From: Candidatus Coprenecus pullistercoris
GTDB lineage: Bacteria > Bacteroidota > Bacteroidia > Bacteroidales > UBA932
Reading direction: 5' to 3'
Assembly (NCBI GenBank): GCA_019116965.1
Contig: DXAT01000024.1
Location: 62,001 to 126,000, forward strand
Length of the DNA: 64,000 bases
The translations under genes and the position numbers were made by a program. The notes under the pieces are model-generated. The model did not search any database. It had not been told where the DNA came from and saw nothing but the letters and a program-made list of their open reading frames with translations. This document shows, one piece after another, positions 1,864-63,760 of the stretch. Each line of letters opens with the position of its first letter. The stretch's first letter is position 1.

Positions 1864-4578
1864 ATGTCAAACAAACGAGTTTATTTCTTTGGAGGTAAAG
1901 AGGCCGAAGGAAACGGTTCAATGAGAAACCTCCTTGGCGGTAAAGGTGCCAACCTCGCTGAGATGTGCACGCTCGGTATGCCTGTTCCCGCAGGATTCAC
2001 CATTACGACAGAGTGCTGCACCGAGTATTACAACTTAGGATGCAAATATCCGGCTGATCTGGAGAAAGAGGTCAATGACGCACTGTCACGCGCAGAGATG
2101 ATGATGGGTAGGAAATTCGGAGACAAGGACAATCCTCTCCTCGTTTCATGCCGTTCCGGCGCACGCTCATCCATGCCTGGAATGATGGAGACCGTACTGA
2201 ATATCGGACTTTGCTCCGCAACCATACCGGGGATGATAGCCAAGACGCAGAATCCCCGCTTCGTATACGACGCATACCGTCGTCTGATCATGATGTACTC
2301 GGATGTGGTAATGGAAAAGGCCGAGGGCATAGAGCCGGCCGAGGGCCAGGGCATCAGGGTTCAGCTGGACCGGATGCTCGGCGAGCTGAAAGCCCAAAAG
2401 GGCTACAGGAGCGATACTGACCTGACCGAGGAGGACCTCAAGCAGCTCTGCTCTGACTTCAAGGTACGCGTAAAACAGGTACTCGGCAAGGAGTTTCCCG
2501 ACAACGCATACGAGCAGCTCTGGGGAGGTATCGGAGCCGTGTTCAAATCATGGAACGGAAAGAGGGCCATCGCTTACCGCCGCATCGAGGGCATCCCCGA
2601 TGACTGGGGTACAGCCGTGAATGTACAGGCCATGGTATTCGGAAACATGGGAGACAACTCCGCTACAGGCGTGGCATTCTCCCGTAACCCAGCCACCGGC
2701 GAGAACAAGTTCTACGGAGAATGGCTCATCAACGCCCAGGGCGAGGATGTCGTAGCCGGTATCCGTACCCCCAACCCTCTGAATGAGGCCACAAAGAACG
2801 AGCACAACCGCAACTTAGCATCCCTCGAGACCGCAATGCCCGAGGTTTATAAAGAGCTTGACGACATCCAGAACCATCTTGAAGACCACTTCAAGGACAT
2901 GCAGGACATCGAGTTCACCATCCAGGACGGCAAGCTCTGGATGCTCCAGTGCCGTGTCGGCAAGAGGACCGGTCTGGCAGCGCTCAATATGGCCATGGAC
3001 ATGCTTCATGAGGGTCTTATCGATGAGAAGACCGCAGTGATGAGAGTGGCACCCAACCAGCTTGACGAGCTGCTCCACCCTATCCTGAACCCCGCTGCCG
3101 AGAAGAAGGCTACAGTCATCGCGCAGGGTCTGCCCGCAGGTCCCGGAGGCTCTGTAGGAAAGATTGTGTTCACAGCAGAGGATGCGGTAGCCGCGGCTGC
3201 CCGCAAGGAGAAGGTAGTCCTCGTTCGCGAGGAGACCAATCCTGAGGATGTCGAGGGCATGCGTGCAGCAGACGGTCTGCTCACGGCCCGCGGAGGTATG
3301 ACTTCCCACGCGGCCCTCGTAGCCCGCGGATGGGGAAAATGCTGCATCGTAGGTTGTGATGCCCTGCATATTGACTTGGACGCCAAGACTCTGACAATCA
3401 ACGGTAAGACATATAAGGAAGGAGATGTATTCTCGCTTAACGGCTCAAAAGGATTCGTATACGATGTACCCGTAGAGACCATGGACGCATCGGAGAATCC
3501 ACGTTTCGTAGAGTACATGACCCTCGTGGACAAGTACCGCAGACTCGGCGTGCGCACCAATGCGGACACCCCTGAGGACGCCGCAAGAGCTCTCTCGTTC
3601 GGAGCTGAGGGCATCGGCCTCTTCCGTATCGAGCACATGTTCTACGGAGCACATTCGGAAGAGCCTCTGTCCAAACTCCGCAAGATGATTCTCTCCAAGG
3701 ATACAGATGAGAGGAAAGCAGCCTTGGCTGAGCTCGAGCCATATATCAAGAACGCAGTCAAGAACACCTTGAAGGTCATGGACGGCAAGCCTGTCACATT
3801 CCGTCTGCTCGACCCTCCTCTCCATGAGTTCGTGCCCCAGACGCCCGAAAAAGAGGCAGAGCTGGCCAAGGAGCTCGGAGTAAGCATCGACGACATCGAG
3901 AAACGCGGAGAGAGCCTGCACGAGGTCAACCCCATGATGGGTCACCGCGGTGTCCGTCTCGGCATCACATATCCCGAGATCAGCGAGACCCAGTTCCGCG
4001 CCATCTTCAACGCCACTGCAGAACTCATCAAGGAAGGCTTCAATCCCAAGCCCGAGATCATGATTCCAGTAACCATCATCGTACGCGAGCTTGACTTCCA
4101 GAAGAGAATATGCGACCGCGTGCACGAAGAGGTAGAGAAAGCCACGGGCGTGACCATCAACTACCTCTATGGTACGATGATTGAGATTCCGAGAGCCGCT
4201 CTTCTCGCCAACTTCATGGCCAAAACGGCCCAGTTCTTCTCATTCGGAACAAACGACCTGACACAGATGACATTCGGATTCTCCCGCGACGATATCGGTG
4301 CATTCATGAATGACTACTTGGAGAACAAGCTTCTCGATGCGGATCCGTTCCAGACCATCGATATCGAGTCGGTCGGCAAACTGATTGATATAGGCGTAAA
4401 GGGCGGACGCAGCACCAACCCGAAACTGAAGGTGGGTATATGCGGCGAGCACGGCGGAGACCCAGCTTCCGTAGAGTTCTGTCACAAAATCGGCATGGAC
4501 TATGTATCCTGCTCACCCTTCAGGGTTCCCATCGCCCGCCTTGCTGCGGCGCAGGCTGCAATCAAGAACGGACAGTAA
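1864..4578 (+). CDS. ppdK: Pyruvate, phosphate dikinase
   Basis: A 904-residue cytosolic enzyme that interconverts PEP, AMP and PPi with pyruvate, ATP and phosphate. In anaerobic Bacteroidales it usually works alongside or instead of pyruvate kinase. The order is the classic one: an N-terminal ATP-grasp nucleotide domain (GGKGANLAEM near residue 27), the swivelling phosphohistidine domain (GGMTSHAALVARG, catalytic His about 482), and a C-terminal PEP/pyruvate barrel with CGEHGGDP, where the catalytic Cys is about 860. Length is normal for the family. It has its own -7 element upstream and a strong terminator just downstream, so it is probably transcribed alone or as the last gene of the purL run. 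Confidence 0.98.
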   Translation: MSNKRVYFFGGKEAEGNGSMRNLLGGKGANLAEMCTLGMPVPAGFTITTECCTEYYNLGCKYPADLEKEVNDALSRAEMMMGRKFGDKDNPLLVSCRSGARSSMPGMMETVLNIGLCSATIPGMIAKTQNPRFVYDAYRRLIMMYSDVVMEKAEGIEPAEGQGIRVQLDRMLGELKAQKGYRSDTDLTEEDLKQLCSDFKVRVKQVLGKEFPDNAYEQLWGGIGAVFKSWNGKRAIAYRRIEGIPDDWGTAVNVQAMVFGNMGDNSATGVAFSRNPATGENKFYGEWLINAQGEDVVAGIRTPNPLNEATKNEHNRNLASLETAMPEVYKELDDIQNHLEDHFKDMQDIEFTIQDGKLWMLQCRVGKRTGLAALNMAMDMLHEGLIDEKTAVMRVAPNQLDELLHPILNPAAEKKATVIAQGLPAGPGGSVGKIVFTAEDAVAAAARKEKVVLVREETNPEDVEGMRAADGLLTARGGMTSHAALVARGWGKCCIVGCDALHIDLDAKTLTINGKTYKEGDVFSLNGSKGFVYDVPVETMDASENPRFVEYMTLVDKYRRLGVRTNADTPEDAARALSFGAEGIGLFRIEHMFYGAHSEEPLSKLRKMILSKDTDERKAALAELEPYIKNAVKNTLKVMDGKPVTFRLLDPPLHEFVPQTPEKEAELAKELGVSIDDIEKRGESLHEVNPMMGHRGVRLGITYPEISETQFRAIFNATAELIKEGFNPKPEIMIPVTIIVRELDFQKRICDRVHEEVEKATGVTINYLYGTMIEIPRAALLANFMAKTAQFFSFGTNDLTQMTFGFSRDDIGAFMNDYLENKLLDADPFQTIDIESVGKLIDIGVKGGRSTNPKLKVGICGEHGGDPASVEFCHKIGMDYVSCSPFRVPIARLAAAQAAIKNGQ

Positions 4579-4602: not shown

Positions 4603-4638
4603 AAGGCCGGTCCCGACAAGGGTGCCGGCCTTTTTTTG
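4603..4638 (+). terminator. Rho-independent terminator after ppdK
   Basis: The arms AAGGCCGG (4603-4610) and CCGGCCTT (4625-4632) form an 8-bp stem, with inner CCC/GGG pairing. A run of seven T follows. It sits 24 bases after the ppdK stop and before the promoter of the next operon. Confidence 0.85.
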
Positions 4639-4643
4639 TCACA

Positions 4644-4678
4644 TTTTGGGACCTTTCGCATATTTTATTGTATATTTG
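4644..4678 (+). promoter_or_regulatory. Promoter of the five-gene exported-protein operon
   Basis: A TTTTG -33 element (4644-4648) and a TATATTTG -7 element (4671-4678) are separated by 22 bases, slightly longer than the usual 19-21. The first gene starts 27 bases after the -7. With the preceding terminator, this isolates the 4706-8077 genes as a separate transcription unit. Confidence 0.7.
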
Positions 4679-4705: not shown

Positions 4706-5194
4706 ATGAGACGATTTCTTTTACTGCTGCTTATATCCGCCCTATCCCTGCCGGCTCTTGCGCAGGGCAGGCTTGTCGGGAGCAGCGCGGACAAACGACC
4801 TGCATGGGTAAAGCGCGATGTGGACCGCTACGATGTTATCAAAGTATCCTACGAGAGTACGCTCAGTCTCCGCGATGCCGAGGACAAGGCTTTCGAAAGC
4901 CTTCGCAACCATGTGGTAAACACTGTCACCACATACCTGATGAAGTACAATGTGGAAGGCCGGTCCCTTGAAGATATCCGGAGCGATGTGGAAAACTCCG
5001 GATATGTGCGCGATATATCCGGACTGACATCCATAGACACCTACTGGGAGCACAGGACGGTTAAGAAGCAGGATGTCTACATATACTATATACTTTACGA
5101 CTTCAACGACTTCGAGAAAAAGAAGATAGCGATGGAGATAGACTTCGACTACCTGTCTCCTGAAGGATCAATCACCAATTTCCAACAGCCATGA
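4706..5194 (+). CDS. Exported LPP20-like protein (operon gene 1)
   Basis: A 162-residue protein with a clear signal peptide: R2-R3, a hydrophobic run and ALAQ at about 17-20, with cleavage predicted near residue 20. No lipobox is present. The mature part has a PAWVKRD stretch followed by an alternating strand/helix region with regularly spaced alanines (DAEDKAFESL). This resembles the LPP20 lipoprotein fold (PxWV followed by AxxxA helices). The gene is the first of five exported proteins and overlaps the next by 4 bases (ATGA). The LPP20 relation is a weak-sequence inference. The role is unknown, presumably in the periplasm or at the outer membrane. It may be a paralogue of the last gene of the operon. 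Confidence 0.75.
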   Translation: MRRFLLLLLISALSLPALAQGRLVGSSADKRPAWVKRDVDRYDVIKVSYESTLSLRDAEDKAFESLRNHVVNTVTTYLMKYNVEGRSLEDIRSDVENSGYVRDISGLTSIDTYWEHRTVKKQDVYIYYILYDFNDFEKKKIAMEIDFDYLSPEGSITNFQQP

Positions 5195-5679
5195 GAGTAT
5201 TTGCCGCACTTTTTCTTTGCGCGCTGATGTGCGCACCTGTCTACGGACAGAAATACACTCCGAAGAACTCCCGCAACTATGAGGTGGAGACCCTCAGCAG
5301 CGGACAGGGCACCAAGGAGTTCAAAATCTATGTTACAGAACGTAATGAAAGAAGGGCCATACCGCTTGCCAAAATGGCGGCTGTGGAGGTCTGTGTATTC
5401 AGAGGACTGCCGGCCTCCGGCTCCGTCAGCGGGACTCCCGCACTCTGCAGTTCCTCCGACGAGGAGAGACATGCCGCTTTCTTCGAGGAGTTCTTCGCTC
5501 CCGGAGGCAGGTATCTGCAATATGTCAATGTCACCTCGGAGGGACGGCTTTCTGACGGAGACAAGATAAAGGTCAAGGGTGGATGGAAGATAGGCCTGAC
5601 CGTTCAGGTTCTGTACGACAATCTCCGCAACGACCTGCAGGAGGAGGGCATTGTCCGCTCACTGAATTCCGGATTCTAA
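5191..5679 (+). CDS. Exported protein of unknown function (operon gene 2)
   Basis: A 162-residue protein with an N-terminal signal peptide (LFLCALMCAPVYGQ, cleavage about residue 20). The mature part looks like a mixed alpha/beta domain. It carries two cysteines (about 68 and 86) that could form a periplasmic disulphide, and it ends in a basic-acidic helix. I do not recognise a family. The ATG overlaps the stop of the previous gene (ATGA), which implies translational coupling, and the next gene begins 16 bases later. Tight packing among secreted neighbours suggests a subunit or chaperone of the same envelope assembly, which is an inference from context alone. Confidence 0.75.
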   Translation: MRVFAALFLCALMCAPVYGQKYTPKNSRNYEVETLSSGQGTKEFKIYVTERNERRAIPLAKMAAVEVCVFRGLPASGSVSGTPALCSSSDEERHAAFFEEFFAPGGRYLQYVNVTSEGRLSDGDKIKVKGGWKIGLTVQVLYDNLRNDLQEEGIVRSLNSGF

Positions 5680-5695
5680 TACAAAATATTCAGAC

Positions 5696-6661
5696 ATGAA
5701 AAAGATATTACTGTCAGCCATAATGCTTTTCTCTGCCGCAGCGCTGCACGCACAGGCGAGAAAACCCATAATCATGGTCGTCCCGAGCGACATCTACTGC
5801 ACCAGGGCCGGCTATGTCACTACATATCAGGACGGCAACGGAGAGACCAGGACTGTATCCGACTATGACAAAGCCTTCATCAGCGACGAGAACCTGCGCC
5901 TGGCCATATCTGAACTTTCCAGAATCATGGCTGACCGCGGTTTTCCCCTGAAAGACCTTGAGCAGACACTCAAGAGCATGGACAATCAGCGTGCCGAGGC
6001 AGACCTGTTCACCGGCAATGCCGGAGGCTCAGTCATCCTCTCCCCTCTCGACAGGATCAAGATGACCGCAAAGGCCGATATCATCATGGATCTGGACTTC
6101 AGCATCAAGACCAGAGGACCTCAGAGATACATATCCTTCAACCTCAGAGGCGTGGATGCCTATACCAACAAGGTCATCACATCTGTATCAGGTGACGGCC
6201 GCCCGTCCACGGCCGTATCTACAGGCCTGCTAATAGAAGAAGCCGTACTGAACTATATGGACTCGTTCAACGCCGCCCTGCAGGCCCATTTCGACGATAT
6301 GTTCGCCAACGGACGCGAGGTTACCATATCTATCAGGATGACAGACAACTGCCCCATAACCATGAACGACGAGGTGGAGTTCCTCGGAGAAACGGTTCTT
6401 TTCTCAGATGTTCTTGACTACTGGATGGACGAGAACACTGTCAACCACCGATTCTCACGAGTCGCCGGCGGTGACAACTTCGTTGATTACGAACAGGTGC
6501 GCATTCCTCTGTACAAAACGGTACTCGGTAAGGAGAGAGCCATAGACACCCGTTCGTTCGCAATGGACCTGGCCAGATTCCTGAGCAAGGAACCCTTCAA
6601 TCTGCCTTACAAGCTCAACGAACGCGGCCTTGGCAATGTATGGATAGTACTTGGAGACTGA
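5696..6661 (+). CDS. DUF6175-like exported protein (operon gene 3)
   Basis: A 321-residue protein with a signal peptide ending ALHAQ (about residue 19). The mature protein begins with a strand (PIIMVVPSD), a tyrosine-rich segment and a helix-rich region (ISELSRIMADRGF). This resembles the Bacteroidota DUF6175 family, and in outline the alpha/beta nucleoid of the CsgG/TolB-N/LpoB type (strand, then a long helix, then amphipathic strands such as ITISIRMTD). It is the largest member of the operon and sits at its centre, so it may be the scaffold. There is no lipobox and no predicted transmembrane segment after the signal. The family name is given from memory; the CsgG-like comparison is inference. 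Confidence 0.72.
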   Translation: MKKILLSAIMLFSAAALHAQARKPIIMVVPSDIYCTRAGYVTTYQDGNGETRTVSDYDKAFISDENLRLAISELSRIMADRGFPLKDLEQTLKSMDNQRAEADLFTGNAGGSVILSPLDRIKMTAKADIIMDLDFSIKTRGPQRYISFNLRGVDAYTNKVITSVSGDGRPSTAVSTGLLIEEAVLNYMDSFNAALQAHFDDMFANGREVTISIRMTDNCPITMNDEVEFLGETVLFSDVLDYWMDENTVNHRFSRVAGGDNFVDYEQVRIPLYKTVLGKERAIDTRSFAMDLARFLSKEPFNLPYKLNERGLGNVWIVLGD

Positions 6662-6665
6662 CGAT

Positions 6666-7124
6666 ATGAAAAAGTTTATCATCACAATTATGCTTTCCGC
6701 GGCAGCAGTCCTCTGCGCCGGGGCACAGGACAGTCTGAGGATCAGTGTTGCCACACCCGAAGGTCTCACTCATGAGAACGCGGTGTCAACCCTGACATCC
6801 AATCTCAGACAGGCCCTCATACTCAACAATGTATCAGCCGAGGACAGCCGCTTCGTACTCAGGACCGAAGTGACCGAGCTGTCAAAGGGCGTAACCTCCA
6901 CCGCTCCGCCCATGTTTGTCACTGAGCTTGAGATATCGATGTTCGTCACCGACACGGTCACTGGAGAGAATCTGAGCCAGACATCATTCACGCTCAAGGG
7001 TATAGCCGACAATAACCAGACCTCGTATATGGACGCCGTAAAGAAAATCAGAGCCCGTGATTCCAAGCTGCGTGCGCTCATCATGCAGGCCGGGGAATAC
7101 TTTGAAAAGCACATCAACCAATAA
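6666..7124 (+). CDS. Small exported protein, possible CsgG/LpoB-like fold (operon gene 4)
   Basis: A 152-residue protein. The start at 6666 is chosen because it begins directly with a signal peptide (MKKFIITIML to CAGAQ, cleavage about residue 20); an in-frame ATG 15 bases upstream would overlap the previous gene and add a non-signal prefix. The mature part has the pattern helix (about 20 residues), strand with RFVLRTEV, strand rich in ELEISMFV, then TGENL and a final helix. This resembles small CsgG/LpoB-type assembly proteins that detect amphipathic strands. It lies 4 bases after gene 3 and 11 before gene 5. Function unknown. Confidence 0.72.
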   Translation: MKKFIITIMLSAAAVLCAGAQDSLRISVATPEGLTHENAVSTLTSNLRQALILNNVSAEDSRFVLRTEVTELSKGVTSTAPPMFVTELEISMFVTDTVTGENLSQTSFTLKGIADNNQTSYMDAVKKIRARDSKLRALIMQAGEYFEKHINQ

Positions 7125-7135
7125 CGACAAGAGAC

Positions 7136-8077
7136 ATGAATACGATGATCAAGGCCGCCCTGACCGTACTTATGCTGACGCTGTCCTTCTCCGCATTTGC
7201 CCAGAAAGCCCAGTACAAAAAGACAGACGCCAGCGAGAAGAAGATACCCGAATGGGTACGCTCGGCAGAGCGCGGTTATCTGATAGCCACAGCCGAGGGA
7301 GAGGACATTGAAGAAGCCAAAAAAGCCGTGATGGAAAATATCAAGCAGCAGATAGCACAGAGCATTGCCACACGCATCATCTCCGAGTCCGTCTTACACG
7401 CCACTTACAGCGAGAACGGAGACCGGACATCAGGCTCGCAGGATATGGAGACCCACATCATGTCCAGGACAGCCAGGCTGCCTTTCTTAGGTGAGATATC
7501 CCTATCTAAGGCCACTGATTACTACTGGGAGGAGAGACGCTGGCGCACAGACGGGAAAGTCGATTACATGTACGCTGTGAAATATCCGTTCAGTGAACAT
7601 GAGATGGAGATACTGGCCGCACAATACCGGGACTACGATGCAAGTCTGAATACCCGCCTGGAAGAATTCGAATCCGGTCTGCACACTGTGCAGTCAGTAG
7701 AAGCTATAGGAGACAATATCAACAGGCTGAGGGTATTCCTCGATGAGTTCGACACCATGGACCCCCGCTACAATCAGGTACAGGTCCTGACCGGGCGATA
7801 CAGGGACCTGTACGGACAGATAACGCTCGAATGCGTTCAGGAAAGCAAAGGCGCCGTGGCCGTCACCCTGCATTTAGGAGGCCGGGAGATATCCACCAGC
7901 CAGAGGCCTGTGCTTAAGTCCAACTGCGCCACACAGCTGTCATCTGCCATCGAGGGCAATGTGCTGCTGATAAAGTACAATGACGAATACTGCTACGACC
8001 AGGACGACAACTATATCGACATACGGCTCAGGGCTGGAAACAAGTACATATCCCAGCGCGTGTTCATAAAGCTCTGA
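7136..8077 (+). CDS. Exported LPP20-like protein with C-terminal extension (operon gene 5)
   Basis: A 313-residue protein with a signal peptide (cleavage after FAQ, about residue 22). The first half has PEWVRSAERGY then EGEDIEEAKKAVMENIKQQI, the PxWV plus alanine-spaced helix typical of LPP20-like domains and matching gene 1 of the operon. A helical linker (about 165-230) follows, then a beta-rich C-terminal domain with VTLHLGGREI. The operon therefore starts and ends with LPP20-like proteins. The stop abuts the stop of convergent hydE with no spare base, and no terminator is seen between them. Family assignment is by eye and moderate; the role is unknown. Confidence 0.74.
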   Translation: MNTMIKAALTVLMLTLSFSAFAQKAQYKKTDASEKKIPEWVRSAERGYLIATAEGEDIEEAKKAVMENIKQQIAQSIATRIISESVLHATYSENGDRTSGSQDMETHIMSRTARLPFLGEISLSKATDYYWEERRWRTDGKVDYMYAVKYPFSEHEMEILAAQYRDYDASLNTRLEEFESGLHTVQSVEAIGDNINRLRVFLDEFDTMDPRYNQVQVLTGRYRDLYGQITLECVQESKGAVAVTLHLGGREISTSQRPVLKSNCATQLSSAIEGNVLLIKYNDEYCYDQDDNYIDIRLRAGNKYISQRVFIKL

Positions 8078-9115
8078 CTATCTCTTGCCGAAATGCTGCG
8101 AATCTCCCCACCTGCCATAGCCGATGGGGATTTTCATATCCTTTAGTCTCTGTTCTGTCCTTGACGAGGATATGGCCGCATCCTCTCCTACTCCGGGCTT
8201 GTTCTGATATATCTGATACTCCTCACGGACATCTGCAGAAGTAAGATTGGGCATAAGGACATTGGCACCGGCCATGATCGCCCTCTCCCTGCCGTCCTGC
8301 ACAATGGCCTGCATGGCCGTAGTCGCCGCGATATTGATATCCGGCATGAGCAGCCTGAGCAAAGCGACCATCTTCAGGGACAGCTCCAGACGGCTCATCT
8401 TGTCCGGGATCAGTCCGCGGTACTCATACAGGGGTGTCTGAGAGTGCTCGAGATAGGGGCCCATACCGCACATGTCTATATCCAGGCGTTTGAAGAACAG
8501 CAGGTCGTCAGCCAGATGAGCCGCCGTCTGGAAAGGCAGTCCTATCATGACTCCGGTACCTACCTGATATCCGCATCTGCGGAGACTGACAAGTGCCTCT
8601 ACCCTGGTTTCATAGCTGTGGACAGCATCAGCAGGATGTATTTTCTCATAAAGCTCCTTCGTGGACGACTCTATGCGGAGCAGGTATCTGTGCGCACCGG
8701 CCTCAAACCATTCCTGATACACATCCATGGACTGCTCTCCGAGAGAAAGCGTGATGCCGAGAGGCCAGCGGCGTTTTATCTCCACCAACATGGCCGTTAT
8801 CCTGTCTATGAACATGCGGTCAGTGCGCTCGCCACCCTGAATCACTAAAGAGCCGTATCCTTCTTTAAAGGCAAACTCGGCGGCGTCAAGCACTTCCTTG
8901 TCGGTCAGCTCGTACCTTCCGGCCTCCCGATTGTCCCGCCTTATACCACAATACAGACAGTTCTTCCGGCATATATTGGATATCTCCACGAGGCCGCGCA
9001 GATACACGCTCTCTCCCACTGTCTTTTTCTTCACCTCATATGCCTTGGCATACAGGGCGGCCGCATTCTCCGGACTGGAATCCTCCAGAACCGATATAAG
9101 TTCCTCCCTTGTCAT
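8078..9115 (-). CDS. hydE: [FeFe] hydrogenase H-cluster radical SAM maturase HydE
   Basis: A 345-residue radical SAM enzyme that helps build the dithiomethylamine/diiron part of the hydrogenase H-cluster. The CxxxCxxC cluster motif is at C49, C53 and C56 (CRKNCLYC). Downstream landmarks include the EGYGSLVIQGGE segment and GTGVMIGLPFQT, typical of HydE. The start at 9115 overlaps the hydF stop by 4 bases (ATGA). A longer in-frame extension upstream would lie entirely inside hydF and is rejected. Neither HydG nor the hydrogenase is in this window, so they must be elsewhere if the pathway is complete. Confidence 0.93.
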   Translation of the reverse strand: MTREELISVLEDSSPENAAALYAKAYEVKKKTVGESVYLRGLVEISNICRKNCLYCGIRRDNREAGRYELTDKEVLDAAEFAFKEGYGSLVIQGGERTDRMFIDRITAMLVEIKRRWPLGITLSLGEQSMDVYQEWFEAGAHRYLLRIESSTKELYEKIHPADAVHSYETRVEALVSLRRCGYQVGTGVMIGLPFQTAAHLADDLLFFKRLDIDMCGMGPYLEHSQTPLYEYRGLIPDKMSRLELSLKMVALLRLLMPDINIAATTAMQAIVQDGRERAIMAGANVLMPNLTSADVREEYQIYQNKPGVGEDAAISSSRTEQRLKDMKIPIGYGRWGDSQHFGKR

Positions 9116-10317
9116 TTCAGCAACGGTTTGAGCGCCCTGTCGTAGATGCCTTTCATATAGGATATCGCCATGCCGTAATTGGAGACAGGCACACCTGCCT
9201 CTATGGCCGGCAGCAGGCGGGAATACAGTTGACGCCGCGTAATCATACAGCCGCCGCATTGAAGCACCAGGGCATAGTCCATGACCGGTCTCTCCACGGT
9301 ATCCAGTCCGCCCACCACATCGAACTCCAGGGCCTTTCCCGTGAATTTACGCATCAGCGCCGGTATCCTGACCCTGCCGATATCGTCACATGAAGCGTGA
9401 TGGGTGCAGGACTCGAGTATCAGTATCCTGTCCCCGTCCCTTAGTGTGCTTATCCTTGGCGTACCTGCGCAATATTCCTTGAAACAGCCCTTGCTTCTGG
9501 CCAGAAGCATACTGAAACTTGTCAACGGCACATCCTCCGGCACAGCCATGGCCACCTCTCCGAATGCCTGGCTGTCCGTCACCACCATGTCGAAACGGCG
9601 TTCCCTGTCCGAAAACAACACGCTCAGGCGGTCCGGCTGCGCCACTGTGGCTACGGCACCTATGTCCAATAAATTGCGTATAGCATTGACCTGAGGCAAT
9701 ATAAGTCTGCCCGTAGGAGCCTCGCTGTCTATTGGGCAGACCAGCAGCACATCTTCCCCCTCTCTCACAAGACCGGAAAACATGGGCTGCTCATTGGCAT
9801 ATGGCGATGAGGCGACTTTATCTCTTATCAGTTCCGTGAGAGCCGCCACCTCAGCCTTAAGCTCCTCTCCGCCGGCTTTTGCGGAAAACTCAAGAACCCA
9901 CAGCGAATATTCGGAAAAAAGCCTTTCGGCAATATCCGGGGCAAGTCTACGCTCATCCGATTTGTTGTATACCAGCACTATCGGCAGATCATACCGCCGG
10001 AACTGTTCCATGAGCCTTTTTTCCTCCTCACCGAAACTGTCTCCGGCAAACACCAGCACCGCCACATCAATCCGTGCAATCACTGCCTCTGTCGCGGCCA
10101 CCCTCTTGCGCCCCAACTCGCCGGCGTCATCTATGCCTGCGGTATCCGTAAGCACGCACGGTCCGAGACCGAATATCTCCATCCTCTTGTTTACAGGATC
10201 GGTCGTAGTGCCCGGTCTGTCCGACACTATCGCCGTGTCCTGACCTGTAACAGCGTTGATTATCGATGATTTTCCTACATTCCTCCTGCCGAAAATCCCT
10301 ATATTGACCGTATTCAT
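9112..10317 (-). CDS. hydF: [FeFe] hydrogenase H-cluster maturation GTPase HydF
   Basis: A 401-residue scaffold GTPase that carries the H-cluster precursor and delivers it to the hydrogenase. The GTPase domain shows the P-loop GRRNVGKS (residues 10-17), the G2/G3 region around RPGTTTD and DTAG (about 58), and a G4 NKSD. The C-terminal cluster-binding domain shows CTHHASC (near 305) and CGGC (near 353-356), which supply the 4Fe-4S ligands. The start at 10317 places the P-loop directly at the N-terminus, as in the family; a 9-codon extension overlaps the promoter area. A divergent promoter region separates it from the DUF6913-like gene. Confidence 0.95.
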   Translation of the reverse strand: MNTVNIGIFGRRNVGKSSIINAVTGQDTAIVSDRPGTTTDPVNKRMEIFGLGPCVLTDTAGIDDAGELGRKRVAATEAVIARIDVAVLVFAGDSFGEEEKRLMEQFRRYDLPIVLVYNKSDERRLAPDIAERLFSEYSLWVLEFSAKAGGEELKAEVAALTELIRDKVASSPYANEQPMFSGLVREGEDVLLVCPIDSEAPTGRLILPQVNAIRNLLDIGAVATVAQPDRLSVLFSDRERRFDMVVTDSQAFGEVAMAVPEDVPLTSFSMLLARSKGCFKEYCAGTPRISTLRDGDRILILESCTHHASCDDIGRVRIPALMRKFTGKALEFDVVGGLDTVERPVMDYALVLQCGGCMITRRQLYSRLLPAIEAGVPVSNYGMAISYMKGIYDRALKPLLK

Positions 10318-10341
10318 ACAAATTTTGACATTTACAGATAG

Positions 10342-10349
10342 CAAAAATA
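10342..10349 (-). promoter_or_regulatory. -7 element of the hydF-hydE promoter
   Basis: On the minus strand this reads TATTTTTG, matching TAnnTTTG, about 25 bases before the hydF start. No clear -33 element is visible. It is arranged divergently with the -7 element at 10370-10377. Confidence 0.5.
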
Positions 10350-34431: not shown

Positions 34432-34439
34432 CAAAATTA
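34432..34439 (-). promoter_or_regulatory. -7 element of pdxA-rnhA
   Basis: Minus-strand TAATTTTG matches TAnnTTTG about 41 bases before the pdxA start. It is paired divergently with the element at 34452-34459. Confidence 0.5.
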
Positions 34440-34451
34440 ACTACAATTTCT

Positions 34452-34459
34452 TAATTTTG
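34452..34459 (+). promoter_or_regulatory. -7 element of recG
   Basis: TAATTTTG matches TAnnTTTG and ends only 4 bases before the recG ATG at 34464. This is another near-leaderless arrangement in this window. Confidence 0.5.
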
Positions 34460-34463
34460 CCAA

Positions 34464-36578
34464 ATGTCCGATATTCTCGACACTGAAATAAAATTCCTGC
34501 CCGGCATAGGGGAAAAGAGGGCCGGGCTCCTTGAGAAGGAGCTCGGCATACGCACTTTCAGGGACATGATGTACACATTTCCATACCGTTACATCGACCG
34601 CAGCAAAGTGTATTCCATCAGCGAGATAGACTCTGCCGCTGCATATATCCAGCTCAGGGGCAGGATTGTAAGGACTTCTACCGCAGGTGAGGGCAAGAGC
34701 CGCCGACTGATCGCCACCCTCAGGGACGAGAGCGGCGCCATCGACCTGGTGTTCTTCAAGGGAGTCAGGTGGATTCAGGACAAAATCTCACCAGACAAAG
34801 AGTACATTGTATTCGGGAAACCCTCCCTGTTCAACGGCACCTGGAACATGGTACATCCGGAGCTGGACCCGGTCGGAGAGAGCGGTGCCTCATCCTGGCC
34901 GTCAACCCTCATAGGTATCTATTCCAGCACCGACAAGCTGCGCAACAACGGCATCTCCGTCAAGGTCTTCGCCAAACTGCAGCAGACTCTCCAGCAAAAG
35001 ACGGCCGGCAGGATATACGAGACCATGCCGCAGGATGTAATCAAGGCCAACAAGCTGCCTTCACTGGCATTTGCCATGAGCAACATACATTTTCCCAAGG
35101 ACACAAGAAGCCTGGAAGCGGCCCGGTACCGTCTGAAATTCGAGGAACTGTTCTTCCTTCAGCTTTCCCTGCTCCGGCAGAGGAATGTGAGGATGAGCGG
35201 CTCGTCCGGCATACTTTTTCCTAAAGTCGGGGAGGCTTTCAACTATTGCTACAGACAGCTTCCCTACGAACTCACAGGGGCTCAGAAACGGGTCATCAAG
35301 GAGATACGCCGCGACACTGTCTCAGGCAAGCAGATGAACCGCCTGCTGCAGGGCGATGTGGGAAGCGGCAAGACCATGGTGGCCATGCTCTCTGCCCTCA
35401 TCGCGGTGGACAACGGTTATCAGGCCTGCATCATGGCTCCGACCGAAGTACTGGCGGTGCAGCACTGGCGCAACTTCGAGCGCAGTCTGGCCGGCTCGGA
35501 TGTCAGGGTCGCCTTGCTGACAGGCAGCACCAAGGCCAAGGAACGCCGTGAGATAGACGGTGGACTGCGGGACGGAAGCATCAACATACTCATAGGCACC
35601 CATGCCGTCATAGAGGAGAGCGTGGTCTTCCACCGCCTGGGCTTCGTGGTCATAGACGAGCAGCACCGCTTCGGTGTGAATCAAAGGGCAAGACTCCGGC
35701 TCAAATCGGCCGAACAGCCTCATATCCTGGTCATGACCGCCACGCCCATACCGCGCACATTAGCGATGACACTTTACGGAGACCTGGATGTATCCGTGCT
35801 CGACGAGCTGCCTCCGGGACGCAAGCCGGTGCAGACCATACATGTGACCGAAGGACAGCGGTACAAAATGTACGACTTCATCAAGAAAGAGATAAAAAGC
35901 GGCAGGCAGGCCTTCATCGTCTATCCGCTTATCAAAGAGTCCGAGAAACTCGACTATCAGAACCTGGAAGAGGGTTATCAGACAGTCGTGAACTATTTTC
36001 CCGCACCGGAATTCGTAACGGCTGTCGTACACGGCCAGCAGACCAACGAGAACAAGGCCCACGACATGAAGCTCTTCGCCGATGGCAAGGCCGACATATT
36101 AGTGGCCACATCGGTCATCGAGGTCGGCGTGGATGTACCCAACGCCTCGGTGATGGTCATCGAGAGTGCGGAGCGTTTCGGCTTGTCCCAGCTGCATCAG
36201 CTGCGCGGACGGGTCGGACGCGGTGCCGAGAAGTCCTACTGCATCCTCATGACCGGCTACAAGCTCAGCGAGGAGTCCCGCAAGAGGATTGAGCTGATGT
36301 GCTCGACCGGCGACGGCTTCGAGCTGGCCGAGGCCGACCTGCGCATGAGAGGCCCTGGCGACATGGAAGGTACGCGGCAGAGCGGCCTGGCCTTCGACCT
36401 GCGGATAGCCGACCTCGGCAAGGACTCCCCTATCCTGGCCCAGGCCCGCTCTGCCGCCGCCGACATTCTGGCCGCCGACCCCTTGCTCGGGAGTCCGTCC
36501 TCCGCCCTGCTCCGCTCAGGCCTGGACCGTCTCCGGCAGGAAGGCGGCGAAGTCATAGATTATTCAACCATAAGTTAA
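34464..36578 (+). CDS. recG: ATP-dependent DNA helicase RecG
   Basis: A 704-residue branch-migration helicase that remodels stalled replication forks and recombination junctions. Order of domains: an N-terminal wedge/OB domain (about 1-190), then superfamily 2 motor domains. Walker A is QGDVGSGKTMVAML (about 295), the DEQH box DEQHRFGVN is near 400, and TATPIPRTLAM and the arginine-finger motif QLRGRVGRG follow. Length is typical. The mgsA gene begins 5 bases after the stop. Confidence 0.97.
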   Translation: MSDILDTEIKFLPGIGEKRAGLLEKELGIRTFRDMMYTFPYRYIDRSKVYSISEIDSAAAYIQLRGRIVRTSTAGEGKSRRLIATLRDESGAIDLVFFKGVRWIQDKISPDKEYIVFGKPSLFNGTWNMVHPELDPVGESGASSWPSTLIGIYSSTDKLRNNGISVKVFAKLQQTLQQKTAGRIYETMPQDVIKANKLPSLAFAMSNIHFPKDTRSLEAARYRLKFEELFFLQLSLLRQRNVRMSGSSGILFPKVGEAFNYCYRQLPYELTGAQKRVIKEIRRDTVSGKQMNRLLQGDVGSGKTMVAMLSALIAVDNGYQACIMAPTEVLAVQHWRNFERSLAGSDVRVALLTGSTKAKERREIDGGLRDGSINILIGTHAVIEESVVFHRLGFVVIDEQHRFGVNQRARLRLKSAEQPHILVMTATPIPRTLAMTLYGDLDVSVLDELPPGRKPVQTIHVTEGQRYKMYDFIKKEIKSGRQAFIVYPLIKESEKLDYQNLEEGYQTVVNYFPAPEFVTAVVHGQQTNENKAHDMKLFADGKADILVATSVIEVGVDVPNASVMVIESAERFGLSQLHQLRGRVGRGAEKSYCILMTGYKLSEESRKRIELMCSTGDGFELAEADLRMRGPGDMEGTRQSGLAFDLRIADLGKDSPILAQARSAAADILAADPLLGSPSSALLRSGLDRLRQEGGEVIDYSTIS

Positions 36579-51364: not shown

Positions 51365-51396
51365 CAAATATACATACTATTTTGCAGATTCGCAAA
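51365..51396 (-). promoter_or_regulatory. Promoter of tRNA-Cys
   Basis: Minus-strand TTTG (51393-51396), a 20-base spacer and TATATTTG (51365-51372), the best consensus match in the window. The -33 lies inside the 3' end of the preceding coding region. The -7 is 17 bases before the tRNA 5' end. Confidence 0.8.
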
Positions 51397-63308: not shown

Positions 63309-63760
63309 TGAGGGCAGTAATCCAGCGCGTAAGCAGCTCCTCCGTCGTCATTGACGGGAAATGCCACGGGGAGATAGGGCACGGAATGACCATTCTCATC
63401 GGCATTGAGGGAAGCGACACCGTGGAGGACATAGACTGGCTATGCCGTAAAATAGTGAATCTCCGCATCTTCGATGACGAGAACGGAGTCATGAACCGCT
63501 CCGTCATAGAGACCGGAGGCGATATTCTCGTGATCAGCCAGTTTACCCTATACGCCTCCACCCGCAAAGGCAACAGACCCTCTTACATAAGAGCTGCCAG
63601 ACCTGAGATATCCGTTCCGATATACGAAAAATTTATAGAAAGCCTGGAGAATATTTTGGGAAAGCAGGTTAAAAAAGGTATCTTTGGAGCGGATATGAAG
63701 GTGGCAATAATCAACGAAGGCCCCGTCACCATCATCATAGACACCAAAAACAGAGAGTAA
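63308..63760 (+). CDS. dtd: D-aminoacyl-tRNA deacylase
   Basis: A 150-residue enzyme that removes D-amino acids mistakenly charged on tRNAs, such as D-Tyr-tRNA. The two family motifs ISQFTLYAST and GNRPSYIRAA are present, and the N-terminus MRAVIQRVSSSSVVIDG is typical. The start overlaps the radical SAM stop by one base (TGATG). The stop also overlaps the next ATG by one base. Confidence 0.97.
   Translation: MRAVIQRVSSSSVVIDGKCHGEIGHGMTILIGIEGSDTVEDIDWLCRKIVNLRIFDDENGVMNRSVIETGGDILVISQFTLYASTRKGNRPSYIRAARPEISVPIYEKFIESLENILGKQVKKGIFGADMKVAIINEGPVTIIIDTKNRE

Follow-up and report, generated by a model that had tools for sequence, protein, structure and literature searches.

What does a run of five consecutive genes for small exported proteins contribute to the envelope of Candidatus Coprenecus pullistercoris? 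The genes, called g1 to g5 in their order, occupy positions 4706-8077 of a 64,000-nucleotide stretch of this genome (the window; contig DXAT01000024.1, forward strand, 62,001 to 126,000), and the third of them, g3, encodes a protein of the family DUF6175. An earlier interpretation made from the letters alone (the sequence-only reading) had suggested that the operon, bracketed by LPP20-like domains, may encode a non-flagellar outer-membrane ring, channel or assembly factor peculiar to Bacteroidales. A literature search retrieved no paper on DUF6175, nor any on LPP20 together with CsgG.

Here we compare this locus with its relatives across Bacteroidota. Tentatively, and somewhat short of an even chance once a scaffold or ring function is included, we interpret the window genes as a locally rearranged form of a patchy Bacteroidota envelope cassette, g0-g2-g3-g4-c4-g5, in which g0 is the usual upstream partner and c4 an LPP20-like lipoprotein partner; neither adjoins the window operon. 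By analogy with known envelope rings, the set probably forms a scaffold in the periplasm, at the outer membrane and unconnected with flagella, and may form a ring. The host assembly is a Bacteroidales metagenome of 1.97 Mb, the window lying within its contig 18, and the nearest named relatives of g3 come from Candidatus Coprenecus and Bacteroidales metagenome-assembled genomes, at 76-82% identity.

A recurring gene neighbourhood around DUF6175

DUF6175 proteins were gathered from 60 relatives, 74 named genome contigs and a phylum sample of 395 genomes; in this sample ten loci, not picked for similarity to the window, could be scored (compared loci carry L-numbers as labels). Immediately upstream of g3, g2 is present in 67 of 74 named loci, g4 follows immediately downstream in 67 of 72, and g0 lies no more than five genes from g3 in 48 of 74. 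The same layout is found in the ten phylum-sample loci, with g2 in 8, g4 in 9 and g0 in 6 of them. Gene order is thus strongly conserved in related genomes, against the lack of conservation that would have refuted the sequence-only reading. More specifically, the recurring set consists of g0, g2 (one or two copies), g3 and g4, followed in many Bacteroidales by c4 and g5. The g0 proteins are about 400-600 amino acids long, with a weak C-terminal match to an outer-membrane protein barrel in several species, and the g2 family alignment holds 38 members.

Because DUF6175 was found in 19 of the 395 sampled Bacteroidota genomes, the system is patchy and not core. Its occurrence in Flavobacterium, Algibacter, Mariniflexile, Chitinophagaceae and other classes of the phylum sample shows that it is not, as had been supposed, peculiar to Bacteroidales. 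Nor is a five-gene plan bracketed by LPP20-like proteins supported as ancestral, since among the examined loci g1 is confined to the genus of the window, and it is g0 that normally lies upstream.

Variants of this neighbourhood were also observed. Tandem g2 paralogues, the second often lipoprotein-like, precede DUF6175 at L094, L097, L099, L101, L102, L106, L108-L110, L117 and L120. Downstream of g4, the loci L046, L048, L112-L116, L118 and L119 carry another recurring pair instead of c4 and g5, comprising a protein of ~160 amino acids and one of 400-800 amino acids with LPP20/FlgT_N-like and sometimes tetratricopeptide repeat (TPR) or Lcl_C regions. Directly upstream of g2, a gene matching CsgG above the cut-off is present at L136 (9372-10205) and L141 (8390-9214). 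The L136 gene scores 37.4 bits (LpoB) and 34.3 bits, above the cut-offs, and the LpoB score of the L141 gene falls just under; judged by these profile matches, the cassette would include, in other classes, a third protein with the CsgG fold.

Gene fusions link modules of the cassette

The strongest evidence that the set, LPP20 included, is one functional unit comes from gene fusions and from the profile matches of the fused modules. At L041, g2 and g3 form a single protein. In 10 of 10 outgroup genomes, which belong to another class of the phylum, a fused g2-g3 gene is followed immediately by a second fused gene that joins LPP20, an immunoglobulin-like region and g4. In hhalign comparisons, for which unrelated pairs gave less than 1%, the fused modules were matched at 96.7% (g2), 97.2% (g3) and 96.3% (g4), and c4 matched the LPP20 part at 93.5%. 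The outgroup LPP20 domain exceeds the Pfam cut-off of 25.9 bits at L138 (26.9 bits), L142 (32.5 bits) and L139 (39.9 bits), and its profile matches the PDB entry 4kzs, 'LPP20 lipofamily protein', at 5.6e-7. A family of no assigned function, DUF6175, and three or more families without names become a single system open to testing, with a core of predicted fold and a minimal two-gene form that is suited to structure work.

Predicted folds of g3 and g4

The resemblance of g3 to DUF6175 (PF19672) noticed earlier proved to be full-length membership (E 3.3e-99; 332.1 bits against a curated cut-off of 23 bits; profile positions 2-293 of 293), with no difference from the family, which has no assigned function. 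An AlphaFold2 model of g3, computed with 55 DUF6175 sequences, reached a predicted local distance difference test (pLDDT) score of 84.9. Residues 22-205 of this model match PelC 5t11 (VIA Z 9.6, 2.8 Å over 115 residues), CsgG 4q79 (VIA Z 9.6, 3.9 Å over 133) and FlgT 3w1e (Z 8.7, 3.9 Å over 134), with PelC giving the tightest root-mean-square deviation (2.4-2.8 Å over about 115 residues). The Z values are modest, yet nearly all top matches belong to one fold group and Foldseek agrees; the region 22-205 is predicted to adopt the CsgG/PelC/LptE/FlgT-middle-domain fold. Outside the core sheet, this first domain has one short hairpin (strands 41-45 and 51-55) in the monomer model.

The window g4 is short (152 amino acids); most homologues have ~320 amino acids, with a helical C-terminal half. 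The best Pfam match of g4 is FlgT_M, under the cut-off at E 0.038, and full-length homologues show TPR-like Pfam matches, bearing in mind that most Pfam matches of single members at E > 0.001 are chance. For the full-length homologue at L093, an AlphaFold2 model was obtained with a pLDDT of 91.1, in which residues 28-162 match the CC_3750 lipoprotein 4kwy (Z 8.9) and FlgT 3w1e (Z 8.0). According to this model, the full-length homologue shares the CsgG/PelC/FlgT-M fold group of g3, and by homology to it the shorter window g4 is predicted to have a CsgG/FlgT-M-like fold. CsgG chains dominate the Foldseek matches of both the g3 and g4 models (E about 1e-4), and the CsgG/LpoB-like layout that had been read from genes 3 and 4 is backed by these predicted structures.

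Homology between g3 and g4 at the sequence level was considered and rejected: hhalign gave 0.1% without signal peptides, and an earlier value of 75.6% was a signal-peptide effect. PDB sequence searches with the g2, g3, g4, g5 and c4 profiles returned nothing credible, and an NCBIfam search gave no matches.

Remote LPP20 homology of g1 and g5

The proteins g1 and g5 are homologous (hhalign 99.5%, E 4e-23 with the signal peptide; 99.2%, 1.7e-19 without it). Eleven relatives were found for g1, which is a genus-level addition. A quick tree placed g1 as the sister of the whole g5 group and not within the g5 of its own genus, and so does not show g1 to be a recent duplicate. Among g5 homologues, LPP20 is the commonest Pfam match, seen under the threshold in 8 of 23. 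The best LPP20 match among homologues had E 0.0023. Compared by hhalign with the outgroup LPP20 domain, c4 scores 93.5%, g5 58% and g1 5%, so that the LPP20 likeness of g1 runs through the profile chain g1-g5-c4-LPP20. From these profile comparisons, g1 and g5 appear to be remote LPP20-like proteins; the likeness claimed for genes 1 and 5 stands as remote homology and not at the level of the Pfam LPP20 cut-off, which neither reaches. Both kinds of match on which the sequence-only reading had built its grouping were therefore found, LPP20 as remote homology and CsgG as a type of predicted fold. An LPP20-like assignment was likewise tried for g2 and rejected, and g2 is left unassigned because profile comparison gave 0.2-8%.

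In several congeners, g5 homologues carry CarboxypepD_reg and Laminin_G_3 extensions (L031:7962-9887, L053:9711-11630) that the window g5 does not have. The LamG-type extensions hint at a polymer ligand.

Partners encoded elsewhere in the window genome

The window genome encodes a g0 homologue away from the operon (C2:13514-14767, E 4.8e-112), and c4 likewise has a homologue there, at C58:21010 (E 1.7e-33). This g0 forms a second locus (L130, G000:C2:8500-20000; 5015-7786, minus strand) with a lipoprotein-type g2 paralogue and a WG-repeat protein. Across 19 congeners, g0 and g2 are both present in 17 and both missing in 2. In many congeners, too, g2 and g0 are found close to each other at a similar spacing.

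A candidate outer-membrane ring and the alternatives

No flagellin was found in the window genome, in a search that was positive in Escherichia coli and others; CsgG (PF03783) has no Pfam match in the five proteins or in the window genome; and SprA was not found in any of the genus's 19 genomes, although the majority carry DUF6175. For these reasons flagellar, curli and type IX secretion system (T9SS) readings would not apply here, and an accessory role in T9SS was rejected with SprA missing from the whole genus set.

We propose that the CsgG-fold proteins g3 and g4 would combine with the LPP20-type proteins g1, g5 and c4 into a ring or collar lying against the outer membrane on its periplasmic side. 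Anchorage would come from the lipoprotein c4, and in other species from the small barrel of g0 as well. Such a ring could act like the H-ring, which is made by FlgO/FlgP/FlgT (PMC7990780), or like the periplasmic ring of twelve PelC on the PelB barrel (PMC12141448), and may stabilise a polymer or appendage of the cell surface, other than a flagellum, where it crosses the outer membrane or is attached to it. The SHS2-like fold is common to FlgP, Lpp20 and FlgT, and FlgP builds basal-disk rings (PMC12222027).

The likeness to these systems is partial. With the flagellar H-ring and basal disk (FlgO, FlgP, FlgT), the cassette has in common the combination of LPP20/SHS2-type, FlgT-M (TolB-N-like) and outer-membrane lipoprotein components, and the models of g3 and of the g4 homologue both match FlgT; however, the window genome has no flagellin, the FlgT_M Pfam match is under the cut-off, and the cassette adds g0 and g2 and fuses its modules otherwise. 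PelC, from the Pel exporter PelBC, is the best fold match of g3, and its position as a periplasmic ring beneath an outer-membrane barrel is the analogy proposed, but g3, which is not a lipoprotein, carries an additional domain at its C-terminus, nor did we notice a PelB-like gene in the cluster. As to the LPP20 family (PF02169; Helicobacter pylori Lpp20), the outgroup fusions hold a true LPP20 domain of which c4 and g5 are remote relatives, whereas g1 and g5 are under the cut-off and are not lipoproteins. That the cassette is a previously undescribed ring machine of the outer membrane, non-flagellar, non-curli and T9SS-independent, composed of DUF6175, a second CsgG-fold protein and LPP20-type subunits and serving a surface structure or polymer, is a possibility that we place on the doubtful side. 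If the ring is real, flagellar-ring-like parts would be in use in bacteria without flagella.

Several findings weigh against a ring. The fold assignment of g3 is confined to its N-terminal region (22-205), and CsgG-like and LPP20-like folds are also known from proteins that do not form rings, of which LptE and TolB sit in its structural match list. None of the five window proteins has a lipobox, Pfam LPP20 (PF02169, cut-off 25.9 bits) gives no match to the window g1 or g5, and the g0 homologue of the window genome (437 amino acids) has no Pfam barrel match.

Among other explanations, the proteins could be an envelope sensing or ligand-binding set, at the surface or in the periplasm, that binds a glycan or polymer and reports or retains it without any ring. 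The Laminin_G_3 and CarboxypepD_reg extensions on congener g5, the WG-repeat protein beside the g0 and g2 paralogues and the TPR-like matches in full-length g4 are consistent with such a set; we nevertheless consider it unlikely, as not every g5 bears the extensions, the window g5 being without them, and among the conserved genes of the cluster we noticed neither a regulator nor a transporter. Rather less likely is that the CsgG-fold proteins are LpoB-like regulators, whose targets would be peptidoglycan synthases or some other enzyme of the periplasm, and build no structure. Both the LpoB C-terminal domain 4q6z, which is among the Foldseek matches of g3, and the L136 neighbour gene above the LpoB Pfam cut-off (37.4 bits) would suit this explanation, yet we noticed no gene for a cell-wall synthase within the conserved cluster, and the LpoB scheme has no place for several LPP20-like subunits and a barrel-bearing g0.

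We give little credence to a curli-type secretion channel, in which g3 or g4 would oligomerise into a CsgG-like outer-membrane pore. The core fold of CsgG is common to the predicted g3 and g4, and its chains dominate their Foldseek matches, but ~133 residues align of the 198 in the CsgG chain, leaving about one third unmatched, and the best-fitting matches are PelC-size cores. Moreover, the g3 model has the one short hairpin outside its core and no long membrane hairpins, and the window genome has no CsgG Pfam match. Finally, the idea that small exported proteins without any relation lie together by chance, to which the rarity of DUF6175 (19/395 genomes, not core) might point, is contradicted by gene order kept across classes and by two kinds of gene fusion, is at odds with the joint presence or absence of g0 and g2 in the 19 congeners, and is very improbable.

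Operon architecture and borders

The operon comprises five open frames, all on the + strand: g1 (4706-5194), an exported protein of 162 amino acids homologous to the N-terminal domain of g5; g2 (5191-5679), exported, 162 amino acids, of a family without a name; g3 (5696-6661), with the domain 22-205 and a second domain 206-321; g4 (6666-7124), exported, 152 amino acids, consisting of the CsgG/FlgT-M-like domain only; and g5 (7136-8077), exported, 313 amino acids, with an LPP20-like N-terminal domain, a helix and a beta-rich C-terminus. All five products have a hydrophobic signal peptide that ends at an AxA|Q-like signal peptidase I site, in agreement with the five consecutive signal-peptide genes described earlier. 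The short gaps of that description were confirmed (16, 4 and 11 nucleotides), and its several 4-base overlaps reduce to one, the ATGA shared by g1 and g2.

The terminator and promoter said to set off the operon are both borne out. On the left border, the upstream gene, which resembles pyruvate phosphate dikinase, is followed by its intrinsic terminator (4603-4639, + strand), whose hairpin at 4603-4632 (-22.2 kcal/mol, z -4.57, equalled by 0 of 200 shuffles) leads into a T run; a generic promoter/terminator scan, which is uninformative for Bacteroidota, overlooked it. The promoter (4645-4678, + strand), of the form TTTG-N22-TATATTTG, is an exact match to the Bacteroidota -33/-7 consensus, for which the whole window contains 4 exact matches against 0.20 expected. 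The other three are at 34432-34464, 51365-51396 and 63655-63686.

The neighbouring genes were named from their translations. The pyruvate phosphate dikinase-like gene (1864-4578, + strand) is the left neighbour of the operon, and a radical S-adenosylmethionine (SAM) gene (8078-9259, minus strand) is its convergent right neighbour. Two genes at 8078-10344 on the minus strand, convergent with the operon, look like those for HydE (radical SAM) and HydF (GTPase), which are hydrogenase maturases.

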